NCBI GenBank assembly: GCA_039033415.1
Contig: JBCCCR010000001.1
Span: 248,001 to 312,000, forward strand
Origin: Pseudomonadota bacterium
Lineage (GTDB): Bacteria; Pseudomonadota; Gammaproteobacteria; Xanthomonadales; SZUA-38
Direction: 5' to 3'
Length of the DNA: 64,000 nt
The position numbers and the translations under genes were made by a program. Positions 71 to 24,147 of the stretch are shown in pieces. Each line of letters starts with the position of its first letter. The stretch's first letter is position 1. Under the pieces are notes generated by a model. That model saw nothing but the letters and a program-made list of their open reading frames with translations, did no database searches and was not told where the DNA came from.

Positions 71-865
71 GTGAGAAAGGGTTATGTCGATGGGCCATTC
101 GGCCAGCTTCATTACTATGAGGCGGGCGAGGGGCCCACGCTGCTGCTTGCGCATCAGTCGCCGGTCTGCGGCCGCCAGTTCGAGCGGGCGATGCCGCATC
201 TCAGCCGTCTTGGCGTCCGGGCCGTGGCGATCGACACCCCGGGATTTGGCAACTCCGATGTGCCCGCTGAACCGCCGACCATCGCCGAATACGCCGCGAT
301 GTTCCCAGCGATGTTGGATGGTCTGGGGCTGGCGAGCGCCCACATCCTCGGCCACCACACCGGCGCCGCCATCGCCTGCAGCTTCGCCGCGACAAATCCG
401 TCGCGCGTGGAGTCGCTCATTTTGAATGGTCCGCCGCTGCTGTCGGAGCAGGACCTCGAGCCGTTTCGCGACATCAAGTTTGAGTCACCGACCGTGCACG
501 CTGATGGGTCTCATCTGCAGGAGCGTTGGGATACCCGCGTCAAATACTCTGCCGGCTGGACCGACGAGGAAGCGATGCATCGCCGGCTGGTCGATCAGCT
601 GTGGGCCGGGGATACCCTCTGGTACGGCCATCGCGCGGCCTTCAGCTATCAGATGGAACCGGATTTTCTGGCGCTTTCGGGCAAGGTGTTGATCCTTACC
701 AACAGTGGTGACGATATCAACCACCTGGCAAAAAAGGCCCGAAACCTGCGGCCGGAATTTACGTACGTCGAGTTACCGGGCGGGACGCACGATATCGTCG
801 ACGAACAGCCGGAGGCCTGGTCAGAGGCAGTCGCCCGCTTCGTCCACGGCACGGACGCTGAGTGA
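71..865 (+). CDS. alpha/beta-fold hydrolase with His at the nucleophile position
   Basis: The 264-residue product has the full alpha/beta-hydrolase layout: an early LLLAHQSP oxyanion strand, DTPGFGNSD after strand beta-4, a nucleophile elbow, a late Asp (TNSGDD) and a late catalytic-type His (GGTHD). The elbow reads G-H-H-T-G, so the residue that is normally Ser, Asp or Cys is His. The Asp and His of the triad are kept. The start is a GTG without a strong Shine-Dalgarno. It resembles the first domain of the fusion protein at 13006-14637, which also has a Thr after an altered nucleophile. A secreted protein of unknown role follows 82 bp downstream on the same strand. I am confident of the fold; substrate and even hydrolase activity are unknown. 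Confidence 0.8.
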   Translation: MRKGYVDGPFGQLHYYEAGEGPTLLLAHQSPVCGRQFERAMPHLSRLGVRAVAIDTPGFGNSDVPAEPPTIAEYAAMFPAMLDGLGLASAHILGHHTGAAIACSFAATNPSRVESLILNGPPLLSEQDLEPFRDIKFESPTVHADGSHLQERWDTRVKYSAGWTDEEAMHRRLVDQLWAGDTLWYGHRAAFSYQMEPDFLALSGKVLILTNSGDDINHLAKKARNLRPEFTYVELPGGTHDIVDEQPEAWSEAVARFVHGTDAE

Positions 866-7278: not shown

Positions 7279-8469
7279 ATGGATACCCGCCTGAATCACG
7301 CGCTCGACTTGCGAAAAGGTCGCGATGAACGCGCACGCGAACGGTTTGTCTCTGGTCTGCGGGGTTATGTGCTCATGGATTTGGCCGGCGAGCTCCGGCA
7401 GGACTACGACACCAAGCAGCTGCCGGCGCACCTGTCGGCCGGCGGTACCGAGCCCGCCGACGGAAGTGACGTGCATAACATCGTCAAAAACACGCCGGTC
7501 TTCAATTTTTATTCGTCGCTGCGCTGCACGGCTCAGGAGCTGGTTTGGGACAGCGTCATGGATTCGGTAGGCGCCAATCGTACGGAGCTGCAGACGACGT
7601 TTGAGACCCTGAGCGAGGCGCCCCGCGGCAGCCTCACGCTCGATCCCGAACTTGACCCCCCACGCTACGCTGACGCGGTGGATGTTCACCTGATGCCGTC
7701 AAACTACCGGGGCGCTGCTGACGCGGTGGTTGAGCCGGGGGCCGTTTATGACAACGGCCTCAATGTCTTTGCCTTCGGCGCGATGGGGCGCCAGCTCAAC
7801 GACATCGGCTGGTCGATGGCGACCTTCCTCAAGCTCAAGTTTCCGCACCTGAATCCGCAGCATATCCTGGATGTTGGCTGCACCATCGGCCACAACACGC
7901 TGCCCTGGAAACAAACGTTTCCCGATGCTGAGGTGACCGGCGTCGACCTTGCTGCCGCCTGCCTCCGGTACGCGCATGCGCGCGCGGAGGCGATGGATGT
8001 TGCCGTGCATTTCAAACAGGCCTCCGGCGACTGCCTGCCGTTTGAAGACAACTCTGTGGACGTGGTGTTCACATCCATGTTTCTGCACGAGCTGCCGGTC
8101 AAAATGATTCACGCTTTTATGGCCGAAGCTCATCGGGTGCTGAAGCCCGGTGGCGTGCTGCTCAATATGGAGCTCCCCCCGAACTCGGCGGTTGAGCCGT
8201 ACGATGGCTTTTACCTCGACTGGGACTGTTACTACAACAACGAGCCGTTTTATAAGCCGTTTCGCGATCAGGATTATCGAGAACTGACCACCAAAGGCGG
8301 GTTTGCCCCAGATCGCTTCTTCGAAGCCGTGATGCCCCGCCAAACTTACGTCAGCGAAGAGGAGTTCACCGGCGCGGTCACCGGCGCAGCAGAGTTTGAC
8401 GAGGATACGGGTCGGCTGTCAGACCAGATTAAGTGGTACGGTTTCGGTTCGGTGAAAGCGGATGACTGA
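7279..8469 (+). CDS. class I SAM-dependent methyltransferase
   Basis: 396 residues. The C-terminal two thirds is a Methyltransf_11/25-type Rossmann domain: motif I ILDVGCTIGHNT, GVDLAAACL (acidic ribose-binding position), SGDCLPFEDNSVDVVF and HRVLKPGGVLLN. The N-terminal ~150 residues form an extra domain of unknown role. GGAG lies 8 bp upstream of the ATG. The stop overlaps the next ORF by 8 bp, so the two proteins are translationally coupled and may act together. The methyl acceptor cannot be told from sequence; a small molecule is more likely than nucleic acid. Confidence 0.85.
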   Translation: MDTRLNHALDLRKGRDERARERFVSGLRGYVLMDLAGELRQDYDTKQLPAHLSAGGTEPADGSDVHNIVKNTPVFNFYSSLRCTAQELVWDSVMDSVGANRTELQTTFETLSEAPRGSLTLDPELDPPRYADAVDVHLMPSNYRGAADAVVEPGAVYDNGLNVFAFGAMGRQLNDIGWSMATFLKLKFPHLNPQHILDVGCTIGHNTLPWKQTFPDAEVTGVDLAAACLRYAHARAEAMDVAVHFKQASGDCLPFEDNSVDVVFTSMFLHELPVKMIHAFMAEAHRVLKPGGVLLNMELPPNSAVEPYDGFYLDWDCYYNNEPFYKPFRDQDYRELTTKGGFAPDRFFEAVMPRQTYVSEEEFTGAVTGAAEFDEDTGRLSDQIKWYGFGSVKADD

Positions 8470-8743
8470 TCTGTCGCGGGAGGTGCGAGGCGGCCGCAAG
8501 GCTTTCTATGACGATCCGGACGTCGATCGGCTGCTGGCGATTGTCACCAGATTGCTGGAAGAGCATTGGGCGCTTCGCGAGCGCCATACGGCGCTTGAAA
8601 AGCTGCTGGTGGAGAAGCAGTTGCTCGAGGACGAAGACATCGAGAGCTACGAGTTTGCTGAAGCCGACAGCGCGGTGCTGGATGCCGCCTCAGCGAAGCT
8701 GATTCGCGATGTTTTGGGTGCCGCACGAAACATCGAAAGCTGA
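8462..8743 (+). CDS. small acidic helical protein coupled to a methyltransferase
   Basis: 93 residues with an acidic, mostly helical sequence: a YDDPDVDRLLAIVTRLLEEHWALRERHTALEKLLVEK stretch likely to form a coiled coil, followed by an acidic tail. Its start lies inside the last codons of the upstream methyltransferase, which argues strongly for co-expression and perhaps a complex. I do not recognise a family. Confidence 0.7.
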   Translation: MTDLSREVRGGRKAFYDDPDVDRLLAIVTRLLEEHWALRERHTALEKLLVEKQLLEDEDIESYEFAEADSAVLDAASAKLIRDVLGAARNIES

Positions 8744-8785
8744 CGCCAACTCCGTCGGATAACCACAACACCCGAGGATTTCCCT

Positions 8786-9442
8786 GTGTATAGCCTGCTG
8801 ATCTTTTTTCATATCTTGTTGCTGGTGTTTTGGCTGGGGACAGACCTGGGTGTGTTTCTCGGTGCTAAGGTCACGGAACGCACCGACCTGTCGGTGGAAA
8901 CGCGGGTGACCGTTCTGAAGCTGGCGATGGTGCTCGACCGAATGCCGCGCACGGCGCTGACGCTGATTCTTCCCTCGGGGTTGACCCTCGCCTCGCAGCT
9001 AGGCCTGATCGATATGTCGAGCATGATGCTGACCGCCGTTTGGGCTGCTGGCCTCGTCTGGGCCGCAATCCTGTGGGTCGGCTTTCTCAACCCGGAAACG
9101 CCCCTGGAGCAGCGGGTTATGTTGTTCAACTTTGTAGCTAACGGTTTGCTCGCGCTGTTTGTGAGCGGTGTTGCCATCGGGATGCTCCTGGGCGTCAACA
9201 CGCCGACCTGGCTGGCGCTCAAGGTGCTGAGCGTCGGGCTGATTTTTGTCGCTGGCGTGGTGCTCGATATCCTCTTCAAGCCGGCGGTGGAGGCGTTTCT
9301 GGGGATTGTTACCGAAGGCGCAACCGATGAACGCAACGCGGCTTACAGCAAAGCGATCGGCCCGGTCTATTGGGCGGTCCTTGCCATCTATGCGCTGGTC
9401 CTGGCAGCCGCTTGGCTGGGTATCGATAAACCTTCGTTTTAG
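8786..9442 (+). CDS. integral membrane protein, five or six TM segments
   Basis: 218 residues starting at a GTG behind GAGGATTTCCCT. Hydrophobic segments lie near residues 1-23, 51-70, 80-97, 112-135, 140-160 and 188-208. The first carries a His within a run of aromatic residues (FFHILLLVFWLG), reminiscent of heme-binding small membrane proteins such as DUF2269/CopD-like proteins, but I cannot confirm heme ligation. It ends tail-to-tail with the EamA gene, sharing 4 bp. It could belong to the preceding methyltransferase operon (43 bp gap). Confidence 0.75.
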   Translation: MYSLLIFFHILLLVFWLGTDLGVFLGAKVTERTDLSVETRVTVLKLAMVLDRMPRTALTLILPSGLTLASQLGLIDMSSMMLTAVWAAGLVWAAILWVGFLNPETPLEQRVMLFNFVANGLLALFVSGVAIGMLLGVNTPTWLALKVLSVGLIFVAGVVLDILFKPAVEAFLGIVTEGATDERNAAYSKAIGPVYWAVLAIYALVLAAAWLGIDKPSF

Positions 9443-10354: not shown

Positions 10355-11344
10355 TCAGAGGGCCACCATCGCTTTGCCGACGTTTTCGCCGCGCATCAGT
10401 CGGCAGAAGTGATCGGGGGCGTTCTCGATACCGTCAACCGAATCTTCCAGAAAGTGGATCAGGCCCTCCCGCAGCCAGCCGCCCACCGCCTTCTCAAACT
10501 CGGCGCGTGCGTCCTCGTGGTCGTAGACGACCATGCCTCGCACCGTAGCCCGGGCTTTGATGGTCCACGCGGGGTTTGGGCCCGGCGGCATGTCGTCACT
10601 GTTGTATTGCGCCATCAGTCCGCACAGCACAACCCGCGCGCCGATGGCCAGCTGCTCCATTGCGGCCTGCAGCAGATCTCCGCCGACGTTGTCGAAATAC
10701 ACGTCGATGCCGTCGGGGCAGGATTCCTTGAGTGCCTCGCGTACGTCCTGCGTCTTGTAGTTGATGCATGCGGCAAAGCCGGCCTTTTCGACGGCCCAGG
10801 CACACTTGCGTTCCGAACCCGCAACCCCGACAACCCGGCAGCCTTTGATCCTCGCAATCTGGCCGACCATGGAGCCAACCGGACCGGTAGCGGCCGAGAC
10901 CAGGACCGTATCTCCAGCCTTGGGCTCGCCGAGTCTGAGCAGACCCGCATAGGCGGTCAGGCCGGGCATGCCGAGAATGCCGAGCGTTGTGGAGACCGGC
11001 CCAAGGGAGGGATTGACCTTACGCGCCAGCGCGCCGTCGACAATCGGATACTCTTCCCAGCCGGTAAACGCCGCCACGATGTCGCCCTCGCGAAAATCCG
11101 GATGTTGAGATTCGAGCACCTCGGATACGGTCTCGCTGATCATCAGCTCCCCGGGCTGAATGGCGCCGGACAGGTGGCGACCGCTGATTTTCCCACGCAG
11201 GTACGGATCCAGGCTGATAAACAGCGTCTTGCAGAGCATCTTGCCTTCCACTGGGCTCCCGGCCTGACCGGTCGCGAGTTCAAAGTCTGCGGGCTCAGGC
11301 ACGCCCTGGCTTCGCGTTTTCAACACAATCTGCCTGTTATCCAT
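10355..11344 (-). CDS. NADP-dependent MDR oxidoreductase (CurA / leukotriene B4 dehydrogenase type)
   Basis: Start at ATG 11344 (MDNRQIVLKTRSQG), giving about 329 residues, the usual size for this zinc-free medium-chain group. The N-terminus has PDPYLRGK-type SLDPYLRGKIS, then DGALARKV, LGMPGLTAYAGLL, and the cofactor loop SAATGPVGSMVGQ with GVAGSERKC. These enzymes reduce the C=C bond of enones with NADPH. It is divergent from the seven-gene catabolic operon at 11430, with an inverted repeat between them, so co-regulation is likely and it may supply a double-bond reduction step for that pathway. Confidence 0.85.
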   Translation of the reverse strand: MDNRQIVLKTRSQGVPEPADFELATGQAGSPVEGKMLCKTLFISLDPYLRGKISGRHLSGAIQPGELMISETVSEVLESQHPDFREGDIVAAFTGWEEYPIVDGALARKVNPSLGPVSTTLGILGMPGLTAYAGLLRLGEPKAGDTVLVSAATGPVGSMVGQIARIKGCRVVGVAGSERKCAWAVEKAGFAACINYKTQDVREALKESCPDGIDVYFDNVGGDLLQAAMEQLAIGARVVLCGLMAQYNSDDMPPGPNPAWTIKARATVRGMVVYDHEDARAEFEKAVGGWLREGLIHFLEDSVDGIENAPDHFCRLMRGENVGKAMVAL

Positions 11345-11359
11345 GCATCCCGACCTGTG

Positions 11360-11389
11360 GTTAAATGTTATAGATATAGTACATTTAAC
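11360..11389. promoter_or_regulatory. inverted-repeat operator between divergent catabolic genes
   Basis: GTTAAATGT and ACATTTAAC form perfect 9-bp arms around a 12-bp AT-rich spacer that contains TATAGT, a good -10 candidate. The element is centred in the 85-bp gap between the CurA-like reductase (start 11344) and the FAD oxidase operon (start 11430), so one regulator bound here could control both. No regulator gene is adjacent. Confidence 0.55.
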
Positions 11390-11429
11390 GCTTCCGCAGA
11401 AAAAACACCTCTTATAGAACGGCAAGCTC

Positions 11430-13028
11430 ATGGCTCAGGCACGATCCAACGACACTCTGACAGACCAACTCATTCACCTGCTAGGCGCTGATCGCGTAGC
11501 GGTTGACGATGAAACCATCACCCTGATGTCCCAGGACGTCTACAAACACGGCGAGCCCGTGGCCGTGGTGGTTCGTCCGCAAAGCACCGAACAGCTCAGC
11601 CAGGTAGTCGCGGCTGCGGCGGCCGCCGGTCAGGCGGTAATCGCCCGCGGTGGCGGGATGTCTTACACCTCAGGCTATCTGGCCGTGCAGCCCGGGTCTG
11701 TGCTGGTCGACATGTCGGGCATGAACAAGGTCCTGGAAGTCAACGAGCAGGACATGTACGTCACGGTCCAGTGCGGATGCACCTGGATGGATCTTCACGA
11801 CGCGCTGAAAGGAACCGGCCTGCGTACCCCATACTGGGGAACGCTCTCCGGCATCACGGCGACCGTGGGTGGCGGCCTGTCTCAGAACTCCATTTTCTGG
11901 GGGTCCGGTCAGTTTGGCACCTGCGTCGACTCCGTGATCGGCCTGGAGGTCGTGATGGCTGACGGCGAGGTGCTGGCGACGGGCTCGGGCGCACAGCCCA
12001 ACGGCAGCCCGTTTTTCCGGCACTACGGCCCGGACCTGACCGGCCTGTTCAGCGGTGACAACGGCGCGCTGGGCCTGAAGGCCACCGCGACCTTCCGGCT
12101 GATACCTGAGCTTGAGGAGCGACGCTATCTCTCCTTTGCCTTCGAAACCTACGACAACCTGCTGGCGGCCATGAGTGAGGTTGCCCGCCAGGGTCTGGCC
12201 ATGGAGTGTTTCGCTTTCGATCCTTGCCTTACCGGCATGCGGATGCAGCGGGAAAGTCTCGCCAAAGACGTCAAGTCGCTCGCCGGTGTGATGAAAGCCA
12301 GCGGATCGGTCGGCGGAGCCATCAAGAGCGGACTGAAAGTTGCGATGGCCGGTCGGCGGTTTATGGAGGATGCCAACTACTCGGTTCACATCATGGTGGA
12401 GGAACGGGTCGCCGAGGCGGCTGATGCCGCCGCAGCTGCGATCCGGAAGATCTGCGAGGGCAGCAGCGGCGAGGCGCTGGATGACTCCATTCCGCGGATC
12501 CTCCGGTCCAACCCCTTCACGCCGCTCAACAACGTAGTGGGGCCCAACGGGGAGCGGTGGGCGCCGATTCACGCCATGCTGCCGCATTCCAAGGTTTCGC
12601 AGGTAACTCGCCAGATTTACGAGCTGGAGCAGCGCGAGGCGGAGACCCTCGAGCGGCACCAGATCCAGATCGGCTTTCTGTTTGCCACCGTGTCCACCAA
12701 CTGCTTTTGCCTGGAGCCGGTGTTCTTCTGGCCGGACGCGATGAAAGAGCTGCATGATCTCACCGTCGAAGCGCCGGTCCGCAAGAAGCTGAAAGGGTTT
12801 GACGAAGACCTGACGGCGCGAGCTGAAGTGCAGCGCCTGCGCAACGAGATGGTCGACATCTTCGCGGCCGCGGGCGCGGCGCACCTGCAGGTCGGCAAGA
12901 CTTATCCGCTGCATCAGATTAAGCCTCGCTCCTGGCAGGCCCTGAACGAGATCAAGCAGGCGCTGGACCCGGCGCGGCGGATCAATCCAGGCAGTCTCGG
13001 GCTGGGTGCTGCCGGCACCGACGCCTGA
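11430..13028 (+). CDS. FAD-linked oxidase (GlcD/VAO superfamily)
   Basis: 532 residues with an FAD_binding_4 (PCMH-type) domain over residues ~40-220: the diphosphate loop ARGGGMSYTSGYL, VDMSGMNKV, LRTPYWGTLSGITATVGGGLSQN and YGPDLTGLFSGDNGALGL, which corresponds to the GlcD motif ending in G-x-L-G. A C-terminal FAD-oxidase cap ends with ALDPARRINPGSLG. It presumably oxidises a hydroxy acid or phenolic/alcohol substrate. It is the first gene of a run of seven packed genes and overlaps the next by 23 bp. A clear paralogue lies at 21387-22973. Covalent flavin attachment cannot be judged. Confidence 0.88.
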   Translation: MAQARSNDTLTDQLIHLLGADRVAVDDETITLMSQDVYKHGEPVAVVVRPQSTEQLSQVVAAAAAAGQAVIARGGGMSYTSGYLAVQPGSVLVDMSGMNKVLEVNEQDMYVTVQCGCTWMDLHDALKGTGLRTPYWGTLSGITATVGGGLSQNSIFWGSGQFGTCVDSVIGLEVVMADGEVLATGSGAQPNGSPFFRHYGPDLTGLFSGDNGALGLKATATFRLIPELEERRYLSFAFETYDNLLAAMSEVARQGLAMECFAFDPCLTGMRMQRESLAKDVKSLAGVMKASGSVGGAIKSGLKVAMAGRRFMEDANYSVHIMVEERVAEAADAAAAAIRKICEGSSGEALDDSIPRILRSNPFTPLNNVVGPNGERWAPIHAMLPHSKVSQVTRQIYELEQREAETLERHQIQIGFLFATVSTNCFCLEPVFFWPDAMKELHDLTVEAPVRKKLKGFDEDLTARAEVQRLRNEMVDIFAAAGAAHLQVGKTYPLHQIKPRSWQALNEIKQALDPARRINPGSLGLGAAGTDA

Positions 13029-14637
13029 CGCCCCGACTCACGTTCCTGCCATGCGCTGTGCATACGCCAATATCGGCACGGCCGACCGGCCGCGCCTGAT
13101 CCACTATCGGACGGCTGGCGAAGGCCCGCCGCTGCTGATGCTGCACGCCTCGCCGCTGTCCTCAAAATCTCTGGTGCCGCTGGCGGAAGCCCTCGCGCCA
13201 CACGCGACGGTGCTGACACTAGACACGCCGGGTTACGGTCAGTCCGACCCGCTCACCGAGAACCCTGGGGGCCAGGGGCTCTCGGCCTATGTCGAGGCCA
13301 TCGAGGGGTTTCGGCGGGCCATGGGGTATGCGCGCGTCGGGGTTTACGGCACGGCCACGGGTGCTCAGATTGCCATCGAGTACGCCCGTGCCTATCCGGA
13401 GCGGTGCAGCTTTCTGATCGCCGACAATGCCGCCCATTTCAGCGACGATGACCGTGAAGCGATTACGGACGGCTACTTTCCTGACCTGACGGTTGACGAC
13501 CTCGGCGGCCACTTGATCCGAACCTGGTCGCTGGCACGCGATCAGCTGCTGTTTTTCCCCTGGCAGGACCCTGCCGCCCGCCTTCCGAACGCAGGTCTGG
13601 ATCCGGCCTTCACCGACGTATTTGCCCGGCAGATTCTGGAGGCTGGTCCAAGCTACGCCTGGGCCTATCGAGAAGCGTTTTTCAACGAAAAAGCCGAGCG
13701 CCTGCTGGCCGTGACCGTGCCGACGACCCTGATGCGGTGGGCCGGCAGCATCATCAAGCCTTACACCGACATGTTCGACGAGTATGAGATACCGGCGCAC
13801 TTTCGGATGCAGGTTTGCGGCCCGTCGATGGGAGACCGGATCTCGGGCCTGATCCACGCCGTCACTCATCATCAAAACCAGGTTGCCAACGGGTTGACCG
13901 GCGCGGCGGGCGCACCGGCCGAGGCGCCGCGAACCTATGTTGGCCGTTTTCATCTGCGGGTAACCGGTAGCGGTCGGCCGCTGCTGCTGCTCCATCAGCC
14001 GGGTTTCGATTCGCGAACCGCGCAACCGCTGGCGACCGTCCTGGGAACGGCGTTTCGCTGTCTTGCACCCGATCTGCCCGGGCACGGCGCGAGCAGCCCA
14101 TCGCAGGACTTGGCCGCGGATATGGTGGAGCTCTATGAAAGCCTGGCAGCGACTGAGGGCGGACCGCCGCCGGTGCTCGCGTTGGGCGAGTCGGCCGCGT
14201 TGGCCACGTTGCTCCACGAACGCTTTGGCTGTCCCATGACTCTGCTGAACCCCCGTCCGGTGGACGATTCGCCGGACGCCTTGCCCGCCCTGGAGCCTCG
14301 GTCGAGCGGCGCGCACTGGCAAGAGATCTGGCACTGGCTGCGGATGAGGCAGATGTTTGCGCCGTGGTACAAGACACAGCCTGACTCTGCACTGACGGGC
14401 ACGCCCGTGCTCGACGGCGAAACGCTGACCGCGCAGCTCAAGGCGGTGCTGGCCTGCGCTGACCTGCCGGCGACCCTGGCCCAGCTGGCTGCGCTGCCGG
14501 CGCCCAACCTTGACCGCGGCCGCTGGCTGACGCTGGCTGAGACGCCGCTCGGAGACGCGGCCCGAAAGGCGTTTCCCGATGCGCCGTGGCAATCACCCAT
14601 TCAACTCCATCAACTCGCTGAATCGCTGGAAGACTGA
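13006..14637 (+). CDS. tandem fusion of two alpha/beta-hydrolase domains
   Basis: 543 residues from a GTG that overlaps the upstream gene (an ATG at 13051 is an alternative). Domain 1 (~15-290) has LMLHASP, DTPGYGQSD and an elbow reading G-T-A-T-G, so Ala replaces the nucleophile. Domain 2 (~310-540) restarts the fold with RPLLLLHQPGF, PDLPGHGAS and the elbow G-E-S-A-A with a Ser. The second domain is short and may lack part of the cap. Domain 1 is most like the protein at 71-865. Within the operon it probably acts on the product of the oxidase; the inactive-looking first half may be structural or work differently. Confidence 0.8.
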   Translation: MLPAPTPDAPTHVPAMRCAYANIGTADRPRLIHYRTAGEGPPLLMLHASPLSSKSLVPLAEALAPHATVLTLDTPGYGQSDPLTENPGGQGLSAYVEAIEGFRRAMGYARVGVYGTATGAQIAIEYARAYPERCSFLIADNAAHFSDDDREAITDGYFPDLTVDDLGGHLIRTWSLARDQLLFFPWQDPAARLPNAGLDPAFTDVFARQILEAGPSYAWAYREAFFNEKAERLLAVTVPTTLMRWAGSIIKPYTDMFDEYEIPAHFRMQVCGPSMGDRISGLIHAVTHHQNQVANGLTGAAGAPAEAPRTYVGRFHLRVTGSGRPLLLLHQPGFDSRTAQPLATVLGTAFRCLAPDLPGHGASSPSQDLAADMVELYESLAATEGGPPPVLALGESAALATLLHERFGCPMTLLNPRPVDDSPDALPALEPRSSGAHWQEIWHWLRMRQMFAPWYKTQPDSALTGTPVLDGETLTAQLKAVLACADLPATLAQLAALPAPNLDRGRWLTLAETPLGDAARKAFPDAPWQSPIQLHQLAESLED

Positions 14638-14639
14638 CT

Positions 14640-15146
14640 ATGACATTGAAAGACACCATGCCCCTGCTGACCCGACACGAGGGGGTTTGGGAAGGCTACT
14701 ATCGCTACGTAGACATCAACGGGAACAACGTTGGTGAACACAAATCTCGCCTGCTGTGCCGGTTCCCTTCCGAGGACACCTATCACCAGACCAATAACTA
14801 CTTCTGGGCGGACGGCCGGACAGAGGTGCGGGATTTTCCCACCAAGATTGAGGATGGTCGCCTGATCTTCTTTACGGAGATCACGGGCTGGGCGGCGGAG
14901 GTACCGCTCGACGAGTTCGGCCGCACCGTGATGCTGCACTGGACCCGCAACGATGATCCCGGTCTCTACCTTTATGAGATGATCCAGCTGAGCGACTGCG
15001 GAAAATACCGCTCCCGCGTCTGGCAATGGTTTCGCAACGGACAGCTCGATCAGCGAACCCTGATCGACGAGCAGCGGATTTCGGACGATTGGGCCGCGTA
15101 CGAGAACTCAACCGACACCTTTAAGGACATCGCCACCTTCTTTTGA
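14640..15146 (+). CDS. calycin/lipocalin-like protein (DUF3598-like)
   Basis: 168 residues beginning 2 bp after the tandem hydrolase. It starts with LTRHEGVWEGYYRYVD and continues as alternating beta strands ending YRSRVWQWFRNGQLDQRTLIDEQR, the pattern of a small eight-stranded calycin barrel such as DUF3598. There is no signal peptide, so it is cytosolic. Proteins of this fold bind small hydrophobic ligands; a role in binding or isomerising a pathway intermediate is an inference. The family assignment is from pattern memory only. Confidence 0.6.
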   Translation: MTLKDTMPLLTRHEGVWEGYYRYVDINGNNVGEHKSRLLCRFPSEDTYHQTNNYFWADGRTEVRDFPTKIEDGRLIFFTEITGWAAEVPLDEFGRTVMLHWTRNDDPGLYLYEMIQLSDCGKYRSRVWQWFRNGQLDQRTLIDEQRISDDWAAYENSTDTFKDIATFF

Positions 15147-15652
15147 TGGAGCACTCCGCACCCGGCTGGCTCAAACGCCTGGACACCTTCGAGCGAGCGG
15201 CAACGTTTGCCGCCTTTACGTTCATGGTGCTGGCGATTTTTGCCGACGTGGTGTGGCGGGAAACCACGGGCGTCGGGCTTCACTGGGCCCGGCAGGCCGG
15301 CGTCTACGCCAACATTTTTGTCGTGATGCTCGGGCTGGGCCTGGCCTCCAGCGCCGGCACCCATCTGCGTCCCCGGTTTGCCGACAGCTGGCTGCCGGCG
15401 AGCTGGGATCGGCAGATCAACCGGCTCGCCGAAGCGCTGACCGCCATATTCTTTGGCGTCTTTGCCGCGTTCGGCTGGAGGATTACCTACAGCGCGCTGC
15501 AGCTTGAGGAACGTTCGGTGCTGATCGGCGTGCTGGTATGGCCGATGATGGCGGTCATTCCGCTCGCTTTTGTGATCGCCACAGTCCGTCACGGTGCATT
15601 CGCGCTGAATCCAGACTGGCGTCCCGCCGACCCCACGCGTACTGCGAGCTGA
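15146..15652 (+). CDS. TRAP transporter small permease (DctQ-type)
   Basis: 168 residues with four hydrophobic helices near residues 22-40, 54-72, 93-113 and 130-150, the DctQ layout, with the typical FADVVWRETTG segment after helix 1. ATG at 15146 overlaps the previous stop (TGATG). It pairs with the large permease 6 bp downstream. The periplasmic substrate-binding P subunit is not in the operon or elsewhere in the window. Confidence 0.85.
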   Translation: MEHSAPGWLKRLDTFERAATFAAFTFMVLAIFADVVWRETTGVGLHWARQAGVYANIFVVMLGLGLASSAGTHLRPRFADSWLPASWDRQINRLAEALTAIFFGVFAAFGWRITYSALQLEERSVLIGVLVWPMMAVIPLAFVIATVRHGAFALNPDWRPADPTRTAS

Positions 15653-15658
15653 CCAAAC

Positions 15659-16921
15659 GTGCTGGCCGCCCTGACACTCACCGCGGTTCTGCTGGCCCTC
15701 CTGGTTCTGCGCCAGCCGCTGGTGGTGGTGCTGGGTGTCGCTCTCGTCTGGGTCTACCTCAGCCAGAGTCCGGATCATCCCAGCTTCATATTGCTGGACG
15801 CCTGGCACGCGTTGAACCGGGACGTCCTGCTGTCGATACCGCTGTTTATCCTGTCGGGGCAGATCATGTCCCGGGGCGCCATGGCGACACGGCTGGTGCG
15901 TTTTGTGGCGGCGCTGACCGGCCCGATTCCCGGCGGCATGGCGATGGCGACCGTCCTGGCGTGTGCACTTTTTGCGGCCATATCCGGTTCATCAACTGTC
16001 ACGCTGCTGGCCGTCGGCAGCGTGATGTACCCTGCCCTGCTGGCGGCGGGCTACTCCCGCGCTTTTTCGCTCGGGGCGCTGTGCGCGGCGGGCACGCTGG
16101 GCATCATCGTGCCGCCAAGCATCCCGCTGATTCTCTATGGCGTGATGACCCGCGTATCGATCACCGATCTGTTTATCGCCGGCATCGGTCCGGCGTTGGT
16201 CCTCACCGCGCTGCTGAGCGCCTATGCCGTGGTCCGCAACTGGGACCAGCGCGGCGGCAGCTGGGATTTGAAGGAGATTGGCACCTCGCTGCGCGAGGGG
16301 ATCTGGTCGCTGCTGATGCCGGTCATCATCCTGGGCGGGATCTACTCGGGCCATTTCACCGCCACGGAATCGGCGGCGGTGGCGGTGGTGTATGCGCTGC
16401 TGGTGGAGGTGCTGGTGCATCGCGAGCTGGGTGCCAAGGGAGTTTATGAGGTGGTGGGTGACACCTCACGGCTGCTGGGCTCGCTGTTCCCAGTGCTGAT
16501 GCTCGCGGTGAGCCTCAACGTTTTCCTGACCTACGAACGCATCCCGGAGCAGGTGGTCGCCTGGTTCATGGAGCAGTTCTCCAGCCCCACGGAATTCCTG
16601 GTTACCAGCAATCTGTTTCTGCTGATGGTCGGCACGGTGATGGACATCGGCTCTGCGGTGCTGATCCTGGCGCCGATGCTGGCGCCCGTTGCCGCGGCGC
16701 AGGGTATTGACGCCGTACACTTCGGCATTGTGATGATCGTCAATCTCGAGATCGGCTACCTGACGCCACCTTTTGGCCTCAACCTGATTGTGGCCATGGG
16801 CGCGTTCAAGGAGGATTTTTGGACGATCTGCAAAGCGGTGGTGCCGTTTTTGCTGATCATGCTGACGGGGCTGGTGCTGGTAACCTTTATCCCGCGCATC
16901 TCGCTGTTCCTGCTGGGATAG
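15659..16921 (+). CDS. TRAP transporter large permease (DctM-type)
   Basis: 420 residues, start GTG, with about 12 membrane segments. Family motifs include FAAISGSSTVTLLAVGSVMYPALLAAGYS, AAGTLGIIVPPSIPLILYGVMT, and ILAPMLAPVAAAQGIDAVHFGIVMIVNLEIGYLTPPFGLNL close to the C-terminus. It forms the ion-coupled transport channel with the adjacent DctQ subunit in the inner membrane and probably imports an organic acid used by this operon. Confidence 0.93.
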   Translation: MLAALTLTAVLLALLVLRQPLVVVLGVALVWVYLSQSPDHPSFILLDAWHALNRDVLLSIPLFILSGQIMSRGAMATRLVRFVAALTGPIPGGMAMATVLACALFAAISGSSTVTLLAVGSVMYPALLAAGYSRAFSLGALCAAGTLGIIVPPSIPLILYGVMTRVSITDLFIAGIGPALVLTALLSAYAVVRNWDQRGGSWDLKEIGTSLREGIWSLLMPVIILGGIYSGHFTATESAAVAVVYALLVEVLVHRELGAKGVYEVVGDTSRLLGSLFPVLMLAVSLNVFLTYERIPEQVVAWFMEQFSSPTEFLVTSNLFLLMVGTVMDIGSAVLILAPMLAPVAAAQGIDAVHFGIVMIVNLEIGYLTPPFGLNLIVAMGAFKEDFWTICKAVVPFLLIMLTGLVLVTFIPRISLFLLG

Positions 16922-16945
16922 CTTTCGACCAAAAGAGGACGCCCT

Positions 16946-17833
16946 ATGAGTGCCGAGCCGCTGGACTACAAAGCCATCGACGCCGTGGTCAACATCTGGA
17001 CCGAGCGCGCGTTGTCCTGTCGCCCGGACTGGGGGCCGCAGTTTTTCTCCGGCAAGATGAGGGCCAAGCAGGGGTTGATGGCCGGCCTGACGCTGGAAGA
17101 GATGGTGCAGCGGATGGACGACGCCGGCATTGGGCATGGCTTTCTGGTGGCGGCCAAGTCGGGGCGCCCCGGACTTCCGGGCTGCTACCACATGCCCCTG
17201 GAAGTCGTGGCCGACGCCGTGCAGGAGTATCCGAAGCGGTTTTCCGGACTCTGCGGCATCGATCCCTTTATGGGCATGGAGGGCGTCCGTCAGCTGGAGT
17301 ACGCGGTCAAGGAACTCGGTTTCATCGGCGCACACCTTTACCCCCACTGGTTTGAGCTGGCCCCTGACCACGCCAAGTACTACCCGTTCTACACGAAGTG
17401 CTGCGAGCTCGGCGTGCCCGTGCAGATGCAGGTTGGGCAGTCGATGAACTATTCCCCGGACTACCGCTGCCGGAGTGTTGGTCAGCCGATCAAGCTGGAC
17501 CCGGTGGCCTGTGATTTCCCAGAGCTTAAGCTGATCGGGATCCATGTCGGGATCCCGTGGACGGACGAGATGATTGCGATGTGCTGGAAGCACGACAACG
17601 TGTTTATCGGCAGTGATGCCCACAGCCCCAAGTATTGGCCGGAGAGCTTCATTCGCTATATCGACAGCTATGGCAGCGGCAAAGTGATGTTTGGGACCGA
17701 TTTTCCGGTGCTGGATTTCGCCCGCACGATGGGCGAGATACGGGATCTGCCAATCCGCGAGAGCTCGCTGAAAAAGCTGCTTCGCGACAACGTCATCAAG
17801 GTTTATGGCCTGCCGGAAGACGCCGGCACATGA
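16946..17833 (+). CDS. amidohydrolase-fold protein lacking most metal ligands
   Basis: 295 residues of the Amidohydro_2 (ACMSD/LigW-type) TIM-barrel family. Family landmarks are FSGLCGIDPFMG, GFIGAHLYPHWF, FPELKLIGIHVG, NVFIGSDAHSPKYW and VMFGTDFPVLDF. However, the N-terminal D-x-H-x-H metal motif reads IDAVVNIW with both His lost, and the usual V-x-I-H-x-G reads VQMQVG. Only the later His (IHVG) and the final Asp (GTDFP) remain. A metal-independent decarboxylase or lactonase, or a non-catalytic role, is possible. GAGGACGCC precedes the ATG; the stop overlaps the next gene (ATGA). Confidence 0.8.
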   Translation: MSAEPLDYKAIDAVVNIWTERALSCRPDWGPQFFSGKMRAKQGLMAGLTLEEMVQRMDDAGIGHGFLVAAKSGRPGLPGCYHMPLEVVADAVQEYPKRFSGLCGIDPFMGMEGVRQLEYAVKELGFIGAHLYPHWFELAPDHAKYYPFYTKCCELGVPVQMQVGQSMNYSPDYRCRSVGQPIKLDPVACDFPELKLIGIHVGIPWTDEMIAMCWKHDNVFIGSDAHSPKYWPESFIRYIDSYGSGKVMFGTDFPVLDFARTMGEIRDLPIRESSLKKLLRDNVIKVYGLPEDAGT

Positions 17834-19257
17834 ACCTCGCCGGCGTGCTTCGCGCCGGTGCGCGAAACCGGCCTGATCATCCGGCCATCGAATGGGCCGG
17901 CGGGACCCTAAGCTACGAAGCCCTGTGGCGCGAAGTGGCGCTGGCGGCTGGCTGGCTGGCTGAGCATGGCGTCGAGGAAGGCGATCGGGTCGGTCTGTGT
18001 TTAAAGGAACACCCGGCCCATCTGGTGCTGCATTTTGCGATCCCCTATCTGGGAGCGGTGCTGGTGCCCATGGATCATCGCTGGACGGACGGCGAGAAGC
18101 TGGCGACCGGCCGGTCGATGAGCGTCAAACTGCTGATTCACGAACCTTCGGCCACCCCTCCGCAGGATCTGGCATCCGCCGCGCTGCCCGAGGCCTGGCC
18201 GGCGCGGGACGAACCGCCGGCCCTCACGGATGGCGGCGACCAGATCTGGCTGGTGTCGTTATCGTCGGGTACCACCGGACGACCCAAAGGTGCGCTCGTC
18301 TCGCACCAGCAGATGCTGGAGCGATTTATCAATCAGTGGGTGACGCTCGGCTTTAACGTCAGCGACCGCTTCTACGCCGCGTCGCCGCTGTACTTCGGCG
18401 CCGGCCGTTCCTTCGCGATGTGTTTCCTGGCGGCTGGTGCCACCGTTGTGATGTCGCCGCCGCCGCAGAAGCCGGCCCAAATTCTCCGCGAGATTAATGA
18501 GCTGGCGGTCACCGCGGCGTTCCTGGTGCCGACCAGCCTGCGCCGCATCGCCCCGCTTGCCGCCGGGTCGCAGCCCGCCTGGCCCAACCTTCGCCGACTT
18601 GTGGTGTCGGGTGAGCCGCTGTTTCCCGACGAGGCTGCGCAGTTCCGCGAGCGATTGTGCCCACGGCTGCTGGCCTACTATGCCTCGAGCGAAGGTGGTG
18701 GCGTGTCTGTGCTGCAGCCGGAAGATTTTGGTGAGTACTCAGCTACGGTGGGTCGCGCCGGCTTCCGGCTAGAGGTAGAGATCGTGGACTCTGACGGGGA
18801 GCCGCTTCCTGCGGGGGAAACCGGCCGCCTGCGCTACCGCGGGCCTGGCCTGGCGCGCGCTTTTGTCGACGAGCACGGGCAGCAGCAGGATGAAACCGGC
18901 GGCTGGTTTTACCCTGGTGATCTGGCCAGCGTCGACTCGCGGGGTTTCATCACGCTGCGGGGCCGAGAGAAAGACGTGATCATTCGCGGCGGGGTCAATA
19001 TCTATCCAGCCGAAATCGAGCGGCTGCTGGGACGCCAGCCGGGCGTTGCTGAGGTGGCGGTGGTCGGGCGTGAGAGCGAAGGCCGCGGGCAGGAGGTGGT
19101 GGCGTTTTATGCCGGTGACCCCGATCCGATGACGCTACAGGCAGTCTGTAAAGAGCAGCTTGCCCCTTACAAAGTCCCCGCCGAGTTCATTTGCCTGGCT
19201 GAGCTGCCGAAAGCTGGCTCGGGAAAAATCAACAAGAAGGCGTTGCCGGACCCTTAG
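17830..19257 (+). CDS. AMP-dependent acyl-CoA synthetase
   Basis: 475 residues from an ATG overlapping the upstream stop. ANL-superfamily motifs in order: LSSGTTGRPKGALVSH (phosphate loop), YYASSEGGG (A5), GWFYPGDLASVD (A7), GREKDVIIRGGVNIYPAEIE (hinge) and a C-terminal GSGKINKKAL with the catalytic Lys. It activates a carboxylic acid to its CoA thioester through an adenylate. It is short for the family but both domains are present. As the last gene of the operon with a TRAP importer, it most likely primes the imported acid or a ring-cleavage product; the substrate is unknown. Confidence 0.92.
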   Translation: MNLAGVLRAGARNRPDHPAIEWAGGTLSYEALWREVALAAGWLAEHGVEEGDRVGLCLKEHPAHLVLHFAIPYLGAVLVPMDHRWTDGEKLATGRSMSVKLLIHEPSATPPQDLASAALPEAWPARDEPPALTDGGDQIWLVSLSSGTTGRPKGALVSHQQMLERFINQWVTLGFNVSDRFYAASPLYFGAGRSFAMCFLAAGATVVMSPPPQKPAQILREINELAVTAAFLVPTSLRRIAPLAAGSQPAWPNLRRLVVSGEPLFPDEAAQFRERLCPRLLAYYASSEGGGVSVLQPEDFGEYSATVGRAGFRLEVEIVDSDGEPLPAGETGRLRYRGPGLARAFVDEHGQQQDETGGWFYPGDLASVDSRGFITLRGREKDVIIRGGVNIYPAEIERLLGRQPGVAEVAVVGRESEGRGQEVVAFYAGDPDPMTLQAVCKEQLAPYKVPAEFICLAELPKAGSGKINKKALPDP

Positions 19258-21247: not shown

Positions 21248-21386
21248 TACGGCATAGCTGTTTTGCCAAACTGATATTGCGCTGACGCCTGAACCGGCTC
21301 ACTATTCCCAGTGCTGCATCACGTCAGCAGGGCCGGGCTGGCGAGGCATGTCCGGACTATTCGTTCCTCCAGCGGAGACCGATGAT

Positions 21387-22973
21387 ATGCAAACAGCCCC
21401 CATTGCCAGCAGCGATCTGGCCAGCGCTCTTTCGGAGCAGCTGGGTTCGCAGATTCTGATCACCGACGCCGAAGAGGCCACCTTCCTCGCTACGGACGTT
21501 TTTCGTGCGGGGCTGCCGCCGGTGGCCATCGTTGCGCCATCGAGCCGCGACGAGCTGTTGAGATGCCTGGCGATTGCCGATCAATACAGCGCGCCTATTG
21601 TGGTTCGGGGCGGCGGCGCGTCTTACACCGATGCCTATCTCGCCACGCGAGAGGGCACGATGCTGATCGACACTCGACGGCTCAAAAATATCGACGTGGA
21701 TGAGGCAAATGGTTTTGTCACCGTCGAGCCGGGCGTGACCTGGGCCGAGCTCAAGGAGCGGCTGGACCCGCTGGGTCTAAGAACTCCCTTCTGGGGGCCA
21801 TTTTCCGGCATCGCCGCAACCGTTGCGGGTTCGATGAGCCAGAACGCGATCAGTCATGGCAGCGGGGCCCACGGCGTGTCGGGCGACTCGGCGCTGAGCA
21901 TGGAGATTGCGGCCAGCGACGGCATAACGTTCCACACGGGAACGGCGGCCGCCGGCGCTCCGCCGTTCGCTCGCAGCTACGGCCCGGATACCACCGGACT
22001 GTTTTGCGGCGACTGCGGCGCGCTTGGCGTCAAGGTCTCGGTGACGCTTCCGCTGCTCAGCAAGCGCCCGGAGTTTGTTGCCCTGTCGTTTTCCTATCCA
22101 AACTTTGCCGCCCTGCACGCGGGCATGACCGCGGCGGCCCGCGCGGGGCTGGACGACGAACATTTTGCGCTAGACGCAGCGCTGTCTCAGGGACAGATCG
22201 CGCGCGAGGAGCGGGCGGGCCGGCGCAAGGAAATGGCGCTGTCGGTGCTCAAAAACGCCCGCTCCATGGCCAGTGGCGTCAAGCAGCTCGCCAAGATGGG
22301 GTTGGCCGGAGACCGGGCGCTGAAGCGTGCCGACTATTCCTGCCACTACCTCGTGCACGGCGTGGACAAGAAACACGCTGAGGCCAAGGCGCAGGAGCTG
22401 CGCCGAATCATGGACGAAGTGGCTGACGAAATTCCGAACACCGTACCGACGGTGGTGCAGGGTATGCCCTTTGCGCCGCTCTTTGCCGCGCTGGGTCCCC
22501 AGGGTGAGCGCTGGGTACCCGTCCACGGCATTTTCTCGCACGAGGATGTGCTGCCCTTCCACGTGGCTTTCGACGCTTTCGTCGAAGCGCGCCAGGCGGA
22601 CTTCGAGAAACACGGCGTGTGGGTCGGCGGCATGTTTGAAAACGTGGGGGCGGCCGGCTTCCTCTATGAGATCGCGATGTACTGGCCCGATGAACGCAGC
22701 ATCTACCACGACACCATGATCGACGCCGAATACCTCGGCAATCTGCCCAGCCATCCGGCCAATCCGGCAGCCCGCGAGTATGTACATCAGCTCAAAGAAG
22801 ACTTGGTGGACCTATATCAGGCGCACAACGCTGGTCACTTTCAGCTCGGCAAGGCCTATCCCTACTGGGACCGGCTGGACCCGATCAGTCAGCAGTTAAT
22901 CCGCTCGATCAAAGCCAGCACCGATCCCAAGGGATTGCTTAACCCCGACGCCCTGGGTATTCCCGCAATCTGA
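21387..22973 (+). CDS. FAD-linked oxidase, paralogue of the 11430 gene
   Basis: About 528 residues from ATG 21387, chosen because GGAG lies 9 bp upstream and the N-terminus then matches its paralogue in length; ATG 21348 would add 13 residues. It shares long blocks with the 11430-13028 product: RGGGASYTDAYLA, VTVEPGVTWAELKERLDPLGLRTPFWGPFSGIAATVAG, SYGPDTTGLFCGDCGALGVK and the C-terminal KGLLNPDALG. Same FAD_binding_4 fold, probably a related substrate. It forms a pair with the FAD monooxygenase 7 bp downstream. Confidence 0.87.
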   Translation: MQTAPIASSDLASALSEQLGSQILITDAEEATFLATDVFRAGLPPVAIVAPSSRDELLRCLAIADQYSAPIVVRGGGASYTDAYLATREGTMLIDTRRLKNIDVDEANGFVTVEPGVTWAELKERLDPLGLRTPFWGPFSGIAATVAGSMSQNAISHGSGAHGVSGDSALSMEIAASDGITFHTGTAAAGAPPFARSYGPDTTGLFCGDCGALGVKVSVTLPLLSKRPEFVALSFSYPNFAALHAGMTAAARAGLDDEHFALDAALSQGQIAREERAGRRKEMALSVLKNARSMASGVKQLAKMGLAGDRALKRADYSCHYLVHGVDKKHAEAKAQELRRIMDEVADEIPNTVPTVVQGMPFAPLFAALGPQGERWVPVHGIFSHEDVLPFHVAFDAFVEARQADFEKHGVWVGGMFENVGAAGFLYEIAMYWPDERSIYHDTMIDAEYLGNLPSHPANPAAREYVHQLKEDLVDLYQAHNAGHFQLGKAYPYWDRLDPISQQLIRSIKASTDPKGLLNPDALGIPAI

Positions 22974-22980
22974 TTCGCTC

Positions 22981-24147
22981 GTGCACGATATTGCGATTGC
23001 CGGCGGCGGCATCGGAGGGCTGACCGCAGCCTGCGGTCTCCTGAAAGCGGGGCACCGGGTCAGGGTCTTCGAGCAGTCGCCGGATCCAGGCGAGTTTGGC
23101 GCGGGGCTGTCGATAGCGCCCAACGCTGCCGCGGTGCTCAATGAGCTCGGCCTGCGTGACCAGATTTTGGCGTTGTCGAACCTGCCGCAGGACGGGCGCG
23201 TCCACGATGGCCGCAGCGGGGACCTGCTTTCTACCACACCCTACGGTGAAGCCGTCCGTGAGCACTTCGGCGACTACTACTATCAAACGCCTCGCTCCTC
23301 CCTCTACGACCTGCTGGCTGAGACGATCCATGCGTTGGACCCGGACTGTATCCACACCGGGCACCGGGTGACGGGATACAGCGAACACCGCGGCTACGCG
23401 ACGCTGCACTTTGCCGGGCAGCCCGATCAGGAGGCTGAGGTGTTGATTGGAGCGGACGGTCTTCGCTCGGTCCTTCGCGGCTCGATGGTGGGTGAGGTGC
23501 CGGCCCGCTTTACCCGATACATCGCATGGCGGGCTCTGATTCCGATGACGGATTTGCCCGAGTCGTATCAGGCGCCTCGCTCCAACGTCTGGATCGGGCC
23601 CCAACGCAACTTCGTCTTCTATCCACTCGCCGACAACACGCAGCTGAATTGTGCGATGTTCGCCGGAGACAGCGACTGGACCGAAGAAGGCTGGCGGCAG
23701 CGCGCGGAGGTCGCGGAGATCCGGCAGGCCTACCAGGATTTCCACCCAACCGTACAAACGGTGATCGACGCCCTCCCGGCTGACGGCTGCTACAAATGGG
23801 CGCTGTTCGACCGCGACCCGCTGTCGCGCTGGCATACGCCGCGGGTGGCGCTGCTTGGCGATGCCGCGCACCCCATGCTCCCGTTTCTTGGCCAGGGGGC
23901 GTCGATGGCGCTGGAGGATGCCGCTGAGCTCATCCATGCGCTGGGTCAACACGCTGATCCGGATCGGGCGCTTGCCGCTTACCAGGCGGCCCGGCTGGAG
24001 CGCGCGAACTGGGTGCTCCTGGAGTCGCGAGCGGCCGGCGAACGTTTTGCGAGCCCCAACCCGAGCGCTTCGCTGTTCAGCAACGATCAGGCGATGCAAA
24101 CCGGCAAGCTGTTTGGCTGGCGACCGCCCGCCCTGGCCAAAGGGTAA
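22981..24147 (+). CDS. FAD-dependent aromatic-ring monooxygenase (UbiH/salicylate hydroxylase type)
   Basis: 388 residues from GTG. It shows the three flavoprotein hydroxylase motifs: IAGGGIGGLTAACGL at the N-terminus, VLIGADGLRSVLRG (the DG motif) and ALLGDAAHPMLPFLGQGASMALEDA (the GD motif). Such class A enzymes use NAD(P)H and oxygen to hydroxylate, often with decarboxylation, a phenolic ring. Translationally close to the FAD oxidase paralogue, so the two probably act on consecutive steps. No UbiH/UbiF-specific context is present, so catabolism is more likely than ubiquinone synthesis. Confidence 0.9.
   Translation: MHDIAIAGGGIGGLTAACGLLKAGHRVRVFEQSPDPGEFGAGLSIAPNAAAVLNELGLRDQILALSNLPQDGRVHDGRSGDLLSTTPYGEAVREHFGDYYYQTPRSSLYDLLAETIHALDPDCIHTGHRVTGYSEHRGYATLHFAGQPDQEAEVLIGADGLRSVLRGSMVGEVPARFTRYIAWRALIPMTDLPESYQAPRSNVWIGPQRNFVFYPLADNTQLNCAMFAGDSDWTEEGWRQRAEVAEIRQAYQDFHPTVQTVIDALPADGCYKWALFDRDPLSRWHTPRVALLGDAAHPMLPFLGQGASMALEDAAELIHALGQHADPDRALAAYQAARLERANWVLLESRAAGERFASPNPSASLFSNDQAMQTGKLFGWRPPALAKG

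Follow-up and report, generated by a model that had tools for sequence, protein, structure and literature searches.

Organisation and conservation of the operon

The 64,000-nucleotide stretch analysed here (positions 248,001 to 312,000 of contig JBCCCR010000001.1; hereafter the window) derives from a gammaproteobacterium of the lineage SZUA-38 and encodes a seven-gene catabolic operon, designated B to H, at positions 11430–19257, with a reductase gene, A, transcribed divergently from it (Table 1). A distal pair of genes for an oxidase and a monooxygenase is referred to as K and L. All eight genes were found at about the coordinates given in a preliminary description made from the sequence alone, and searches of the window proteins against Pfam and NCBIfam profiles confirmed the families named there, i.e. 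importer, oxidase, reductase, alpha/beta-fold protein, amidohydrolase-fold protein and CoA ligase. Apart from the generic dctM subfamily, no NCBIfam cut-off was reached by any operon member. The tight spacing described earlier (−23 to +24 bp) is real in all but one respect: H begins with an ATG that overlaps G by 4 bp, but the value of −23 between B and C results from taking a GTG at 13006 as the start. The relatives of C begin at the ATG of MRCAYANIG (13051), most likely the true start, which leaves a gap of +22. No internal terminator exceeding the level of shuffled sequence was detected in the operon. In a sister species the entire order (A divergent from B–H, followed by J, K and L) is kept with 84–99% protein identity. 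The operon with its divergent reductase is real, and its gene order is conserved.

Table 1. Features of the operon and its surroundings (positions in the window)
Feature	Position	Strand	Evidence
A: CurA-like NADPH-dependent enone reductase	10358..11344	-	NF058644 384.5 bits, cut-off 440; conserved start at 11344
A/B intergenic palindrome, candidate operator of divergent promoters	11360..11389		perfect 9+9 inverted repeat
B: FAD oxidase, VAO/PCMH-like superfamily (FAD_binding_4)	11430..13028	+	PF01565 E=9.7e-35
C: tandem alpha/beta-hydrolase-fold protein	13051..14637 (open reading frame from 13006)	+	Pfam, two alpha/beta-hydrolase domains
D: DUF3598_N lipocalin-like barrel, probable ligand-binding protein	14640..15146	+	PF12204 29.1 bits, cut-off 22
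E: TRAP transporter small permease DctQ	15143..15652	+	PF04290 E=4e-18
F: TRAP transporter large permease DctM	15659..16921	+	PF06808 E=1e-95; TIGR00786 above cut-off
G: Amidohydro_2-fold protein	16946..17833	+	PF04909 E=1.5e-38, matched from profile position 56 on
H: AMP-forming acyl-CoA ligase, conserved partner of G	17830..19257	+	PF00501/PF13193
Upstream cassette	7279..9442	+	methyltransferase-domain protein 7279-8469, 93-aa open reading frame 8462-8743, membrane protein 8786-9442

Proteins of the operon

The reductase A combines ADH_N_2 and zinc-binding dehydrogenase domains and scores below the cut-off of the curcumin reductase CurA equivalog. The oxidase B shares its FAD_binding_4 domain and a weak C-terminal similarity with flavoproteins of the vanillyl-alcohol oxidase (VAO) type that oxidise 4-phenols (p-cresol methylhydroxylase (PCMH), vanillyl-alcohol oxidase and eugenol oxidase), but aligns well with them over the N-terminal half only. 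In these enzymes an EYRTH-like Tyr-Arg motif binds the phenolate; it is present in the 4-phenol-oxidase-type structure 8s7r and absent from the B family, which carries a G-K/R-x-Y motif (AxHxQxGKxY-like sequence) in the C-terminal region instead, and a para-phenol substrate is therefore not implied. Six members of the B family occur in the window genome, each with different neighbours. One distant paralogue is K (36% identity to B), whose partner L resembles 3-hydroxybenzoate 6-monooxygenase with a score below the cut-off. It had been suggested that this locus at 21.4–24.1 kb may feed the operon, a view for which we found no support: besides the low identity of K to B, genes for a superoxide dismutase and an aminotransferase lie between, and the K-L pair (21348–24147) recurs independently at G000:C2:254181 onward (L046:16149–18904). 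K-L is a separate, repeated module.

Protein C has the two-domain fold that its earlier designation as a tandem alpha/beta-hydrolase implied; a normal hydrolase role is made unlikely by the active site of its N-terminal domain. In the predicted structure (mean local confidence, pLDDT, 90) A117 is located at the nucleophile elbow of the N-terminal domain, where the window protein has no Ser, Asp or Cys (G-x-Nu-x-G). The elbow reads G-x-[A/H/K]-T-G, with A, H or K at residue 117 in 33 of 34 sequences, and T118, H47, P50, D73 and W174 are conserved. The relatives with solved folds, fluoroacetate dehalogenase and epoxide hydrolase, employ Asp as the elbow nucleophile; C is therefore unlikely to act as a normal hydrolase. 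In other loci C is usually a single-domain protein encoded directly after B, the tandem variant being present in 19 sequences, and most of 23 test genomes possess no more than one strong C-like gene, usually beside B, an association far above chance. A large expansion was seen in two alphaproteobacterial metagenome-assembled genomes (MAGs; G121 and G122, with loci L142 and L145), which have 21 and 29 C-like genes, often as tandem pairs. No relatives of C were found in viral contigs.

The model of D (pLDDT 92) was most similar in Foldseek to DUF3598 proteins, followed by phycobiliprotein lyases (3bdr, 4tq2) and nitrobindin. D thus shares its barrel fold with nitrobindin and with the lyases of the CpcT/CpeT and CpcS/CpeS types; unlike the latter, it is by sequence a DUF3598_N protein, with no Pfam or sequence match to the CpeT or CpeS families.

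The profile assignment of G to the amidohydrolase fold was upheld, but not with the usual metal site: the alignment to PF04909 omits the first 55 profile positions and G reads IDAVVNIWT where the family has IDxHxH, so that the N-terminal HxH metal ligands of the Amidohydrolase 2/ACMSD family are absent. Its relatives of known structure are BB4693, 4-oxalomesaconate hydratase and ACMSD. Annotated plasmids carry homologues of G (64–71% identity) along with ligases of the H type. In Comamonas endophytica, G and H are followed in one run by an acyl-CoA dehydrogenase, an alpha/beta hydrolase, an isochorismatase and two polysaccharide deacetylases; in Variovorax, an acyl-CoA dehydrogenase, TctC and an alpha/beta hydrolase precede G and H; and in Rhizobium G and H are adjacent, with an isochorismatase a few genes further. 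G of Roseomonas is flanked by a ligase and an isochorismatase, and alphaproteobacterial MAGs encode G, one or two isochorismatases and H, followed by C and/or B.

Recurrence of the module and its partner families

Bacterial genomes were scanned with an alignment of B, followed by gene calling and clustering into families (c numbers), and the same families recurred around 80 homologues of B. These loci belong mostly to marine gamma- and alphaproteobacteria (Paraglaciecola, Aliiglaciecola, Porticoccaceae/SAR92, Halieaceae, Kordiimonas and many marine MAGs). The operon families themselves are represented by A and C (42 loci each), D (20), TRAP Q/M (7), G (8) and H (5). Among the commonest partners is a nitrilase-superfamily amidase (38 loci), along with a CaiB CoA-transferase (34), LeuC- and LeuD-type hydratase subunits (23 and 25, respectively), an HMG-CoA-lyase-like protein (HMGL; 24), isochorismatase (13), two families of PuuE-allantoinase-like ‘polysaccharide deacetylases’ (12 each) and a glutathione S-transferase (GST)-type protein (10). 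Further recurrent partners are GntR/UTRA regulators, DUF1838, an amine-oxidase-type flavoprotein, several vicinal oxygen chelate (VOC) proteins, TonB receptors, major facilitator superfamily (MFS) transporters, a maleate-isomerase/arylmalonate-type protein, MmgE/PrpD, REDY/HapK-like proteins and hydantoinase A/B; an aromatic ring-cleavage dioxygenase was not recognised among the recurrent families. In locus L069, a G homologue (79% identical over a partial gene) adjoins HMGL, CaiB and LeuCD. The same families are carried by the sphingomonad plasmids pJE1 and pTomTYG65b, the latter with two LeuCD pairs, one next to an isocitrate-lyase-family enzyme and the other with HMGL and CaiB. As judged by family membership, these partners suggest imide opening, deamidation, alkyl-maleate hydration and C-C cleavage.

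Genes of the proposed pathway and a shared operator-like site in the window genome

Searches with the partner proteins located their counterparts on three other contigs of the window genome. Contig C29 encodes LeuC (72% identity), LeuD, a cupin (70%), a GntR/UTRA gene, which is a candidate regulator, and an MFS transporter. An isochorismatase (81%) and two PuuE-like genes (77% and 61%) reside on contig C19, so that candidate imidase and half-amidase genes are present at the genome level. Contig C34 carries CaiB (63%) and HMGL (75%) and, on the reverse strand, a run consisting of c3, c17 (69%), the amidase c2 (64%), a VOC protein of cluster c10 (the members of which have no obvious metal-ligand histidines), a second tandem C, a DctP binding protein (PF03480, E=3.6e-37; L164:5024–6049) and another VOC protein.

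The inverted repeat noted earlier between A and B is a perfect palindrome, GTTAAATGT-N12-ACATTTAAC, identical in the sister species, and a related TATAATGTTATA core sits in the equivalent gap between A and B of other lineages. When the 6.4 Mb genome was scanned with a 22-base pattern derived from the palindrome region (up to three mismatches allowed), the only other match fell on C34, 29 bp upstream of the run from c3 to DctP; a control pattern gave zero matches in the same scan, and the chance expectation for such matches genome-wide is roughly estimated as ~0.03. Because of this shared operator-like site, the window operon, with its importer devoid of a binding protein and without amidases, and the C34 operon probably represent two halves of one regulon. 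The uptake by TRAP (tripartite ATP-independent periplasmic) permeases Q and M proposed previously would accordingly need to be complemented: both permeases are there, but no DctP is encoded in the window operon, and that of C34 is their likely partner, the binding protein being encoded apart from the permeases. On the other side of the operator-like site, and transcribed away from the C34 operon, lies a candidate regulator gene for a 237-aa protein without a Pfam match (L164:11096–11806, + strand), which is 57% identical to a gene beside the same partners in L051.

Proposed pathway and substrate

We tentatively favour a catabolic pathway that is dispersed over the genome, has the window operon as one of its arms and acts on an N-heterocycle, most likely a linear tetrapyrrole or its mono- or dipyrrolic fragments. 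Tetrapyrroles are the best guess owing to the lyase- and nitrobindin-like fold of D and to the linkage of B to CpeT/CpcT-family genes elsewhere. In loci L101, L108 and L117, B has a gene of this bilin-lyase family (PF06206, E=3e-36) at a distance of three genes or less, and another is found inside loci L069 and L100. In 6 of the 15 carrier genomes with CpeT it is situated at most about 15 kb from B, versus about 0.17 genomes expected; this figure supposes that genes are placed at random and that the genomes are independent, and can serve as an indication only. The family numbers eight genes in the window genome and seven in the sister species, and among 14 control genomes was detected in Synechococcus only. 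The guess also draws on the oxidation chemistry of chlorophyll and heme, which yields methyl-ethyl- and methyl-vinyl-maleimide together with hematinic acid (PMC7318184): these two kinds of imide match the two PuuE-like genes and the two LeuCD branches.

From the gene content, linkage and conservation, the shared operator-like site, the missing active-site residues and the predicted folds we infer the substrate and every reaction as follows. The substrate would be imported by the TRAP permease E-F with the DctP of C34. B may then remove a hydride from an activated C-H and A saturate a conjugated C=C, while C, having no nucleophile and hence not being a normal esterase, could promote C-C or ring cleavage, and D would bind a ligand. 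Released lactams and imides would be opened by the PuuE-type proteins, relatives of the cyclic imidase HxnM (PMC9304392), and by amidases of the isochorismatase and nitrilase families (C19 and C34); G and H may process the product acid and activate it with CoA. Finally, the alkyl-maleates would be hydrated by the LeuCD-type enzyme of C29, converted into CoA derivatives by CaiB and cut by the HMG-CoA-lyase-type enzyme of C34 to pyruvate and acyl-CoA. Such a route might be widespread among marine and soil proteobacteria: linear tetrapyrroles (bilins or breakdown products of chlorophyll or heme) would be mineralised aerobically, first to alkyl-maleimides, then to alkyl-maleates and finally to pyruvate and acyl-CoA, and the ring nitrogen would be set free. 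We regard this reading as possible but doubtful.

Several points weigh against tetrapyrroles. The fold matches of D to the lyases are moderate (template modelling score about 0.6) and the barrel is a common one; in the window genome itself no CpeT gene was found to adjoin the operon, and the ligands bound by CpeT and DUF3598 proteins in heterotrophs may be different ones. The canonical heme oxygenase (PF01126) is absent from 24 of 26 test genomes, one of the others being over the cut-off and one below it, which leaves the opening of the macrocycle unexplained, although preformed linear or fragmented tetrapyrroles, were they the substrate, would make such an enzyme dispensable. Gene sets differ among lineages, so substrates may differ as well, and the GST-type isomerase family, the VAO-like oxidase and the flavin monooxygenase also fit gentisate-type routes for aromatic compounds.

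Alternative explanations

Much of the partner set would equally serve a different N-heterocycle, of the pyridine/nicotinate type, a ureide or hydantoin, or a pyrrole alkaloid, processed through the same amide and alkyl-maleate endgame: N-ring pathways in general make use of imidase, isochorismatase, nitrilase and hydantoinase A/B families, imidases and amidases are employed in nicotinate degradation (PMC9304392), and the maleate-isomerase/arylmalonate-type family recurs near B. Such a substrate would, however, leave unexplained both the linkage to CpeT and the coexistence of a LeuCD branch with HMGL/CaiB and one with an isocitrate-lyase-type enzyme, which suits two kinds of alkylated maleimide, and we consider it somewhat unlikely. 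The nicotinate/nicotine pathway proper, raised by the amine-oxidase-type, isochorismatase and maleate-isomerase relatives, was kept as a rival only, since its oxidase and the alkyl-maleate part differ. A mosaic, in which B, A, C and other modules were recruited for different substrates in each lineage, would account for the six B-family members with differing neighbours and for the 21 and 29 C-like genes of two alphaproteobacteria; yet in distant lineages B is accompanied by the same downstream families, which the window genome retains at other loci with 57–81% identity, and we consider the lack of any single substrate very improbable.

In a catabolic route for alkylphenols or methyl-aromatics, leading to citraconate in a gentisate-like manner, B would act like p-cresol methylhydroxylase, to whose superfamily it belongs, and the GST-type protein would isomerise maleyl intermediates; the resemblance of L to 3-hydroxybenzoate 6-monooxygenase and the LeuCD-type hydratase are also compatible with this. 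We nevertheless deem it unlikely, as the EYRTH motif seen in 4-phenol oxidases is absent from B, an aromatic ring-cleavage dioxygenase was not recognised among the recurrent partners, and amidases rank among the commonest of these; the methylgentisate/xylenol variant was judged weak on the first two of these grounds. A nitrogen-free terpenoid or lactone, kinds of substrate that the preliminary description had listed for trial, or a polyketide would agree with the CurA-like reductase, VAO-like oxidase, CoA ligase, CaiB and HMGL, which are typical of polyketide and terpenoid degradation as well; the amidases would then be incidental. In several lineages, though, G, H, B or C share their operons with amidase and imidase genes, so that the neighbours point to nitrogen-ring (imide/amide) chemistry instead, and a nitrogen-free substrate of this kind is improbable too.

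Relation to known systems and significance

The enzyme families of the proposed tetrapyrrole route are known; the searchable literature yielded neither their combination nor the pathway, in line with the preliminary description, which could not match the gene set to a described pathway. This literature, outside of which most subscription papers lie, contained no bacterial pathway for a tetrapyrrole, a bilin, a maleimide or this combination of enzymes, and nothing on plasmid pJE1. The closest in logic is nicotinate degradation in Aspergillus nidulans (HxnM/HxnN, PMC9304392), which similarly proceeds through ring reduction and oxidation, an imidase of the PuuE/HpPgdA type and an amidase releasing ammonia; there the upstream enzymes differ, whereas here the diacid appears to be routed through the LeuCD-type hydratase, CaiB and the HMGL-type lyase. 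The catabolism of C5-branched dicarboxylates (citraconate, itaconate, dimethylmalate) by hydratase, CoA transferase and lyase resembles the LeuCD-, HMGL-, CitE/MaoC- or isocitrate-lyase-type enzymes seen here, where the CaiB-like protein is a relative of mesaconate/glutarate CoA-transferases, but includes none of the oxidase, reductase and amidase modules linked to them in the present loci.

Chlorophyll is made and broken down at a rate of ~10^12 kg a year (PMC7318184), yet for the last steps, in which its linear and monopyrrolic products would be mineralised, no published bacterial route came to light in the literature searched. If true, which we hold to be doubtful though not far-fetched, the proposal would be the first pathway for the mineralisation of tetrapyrroles by bacteria. 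Even with another N-heterocycle as the substrate, the loci define a pathway that recurs and that includes an alpha/beta-hydrolase-fold protein devoid of a nucleophile as well as an unusual amidohydrolase. They also point to cultured carriers of B-C-A clusters (Paraglaciecola, Thalassotalea algicola and Sphingobium sp. TomTYG65), in which the substrate can be sought.

Other genes in the vicinity

The families of the upstream cassette (7279–9442) also recur around B elsewhere, with clusters c20 and c34 in 15 and 9 loci, respectively. Across the left edge of the window (71–862, together with G000:C1:246489–248862; L166), a second CurA-like gene, 53% identical to the second copy of L077, is accompanied by genes for a VOC protein (c23) and a single-domain C-like protein, all three belonging to the recurrent set.

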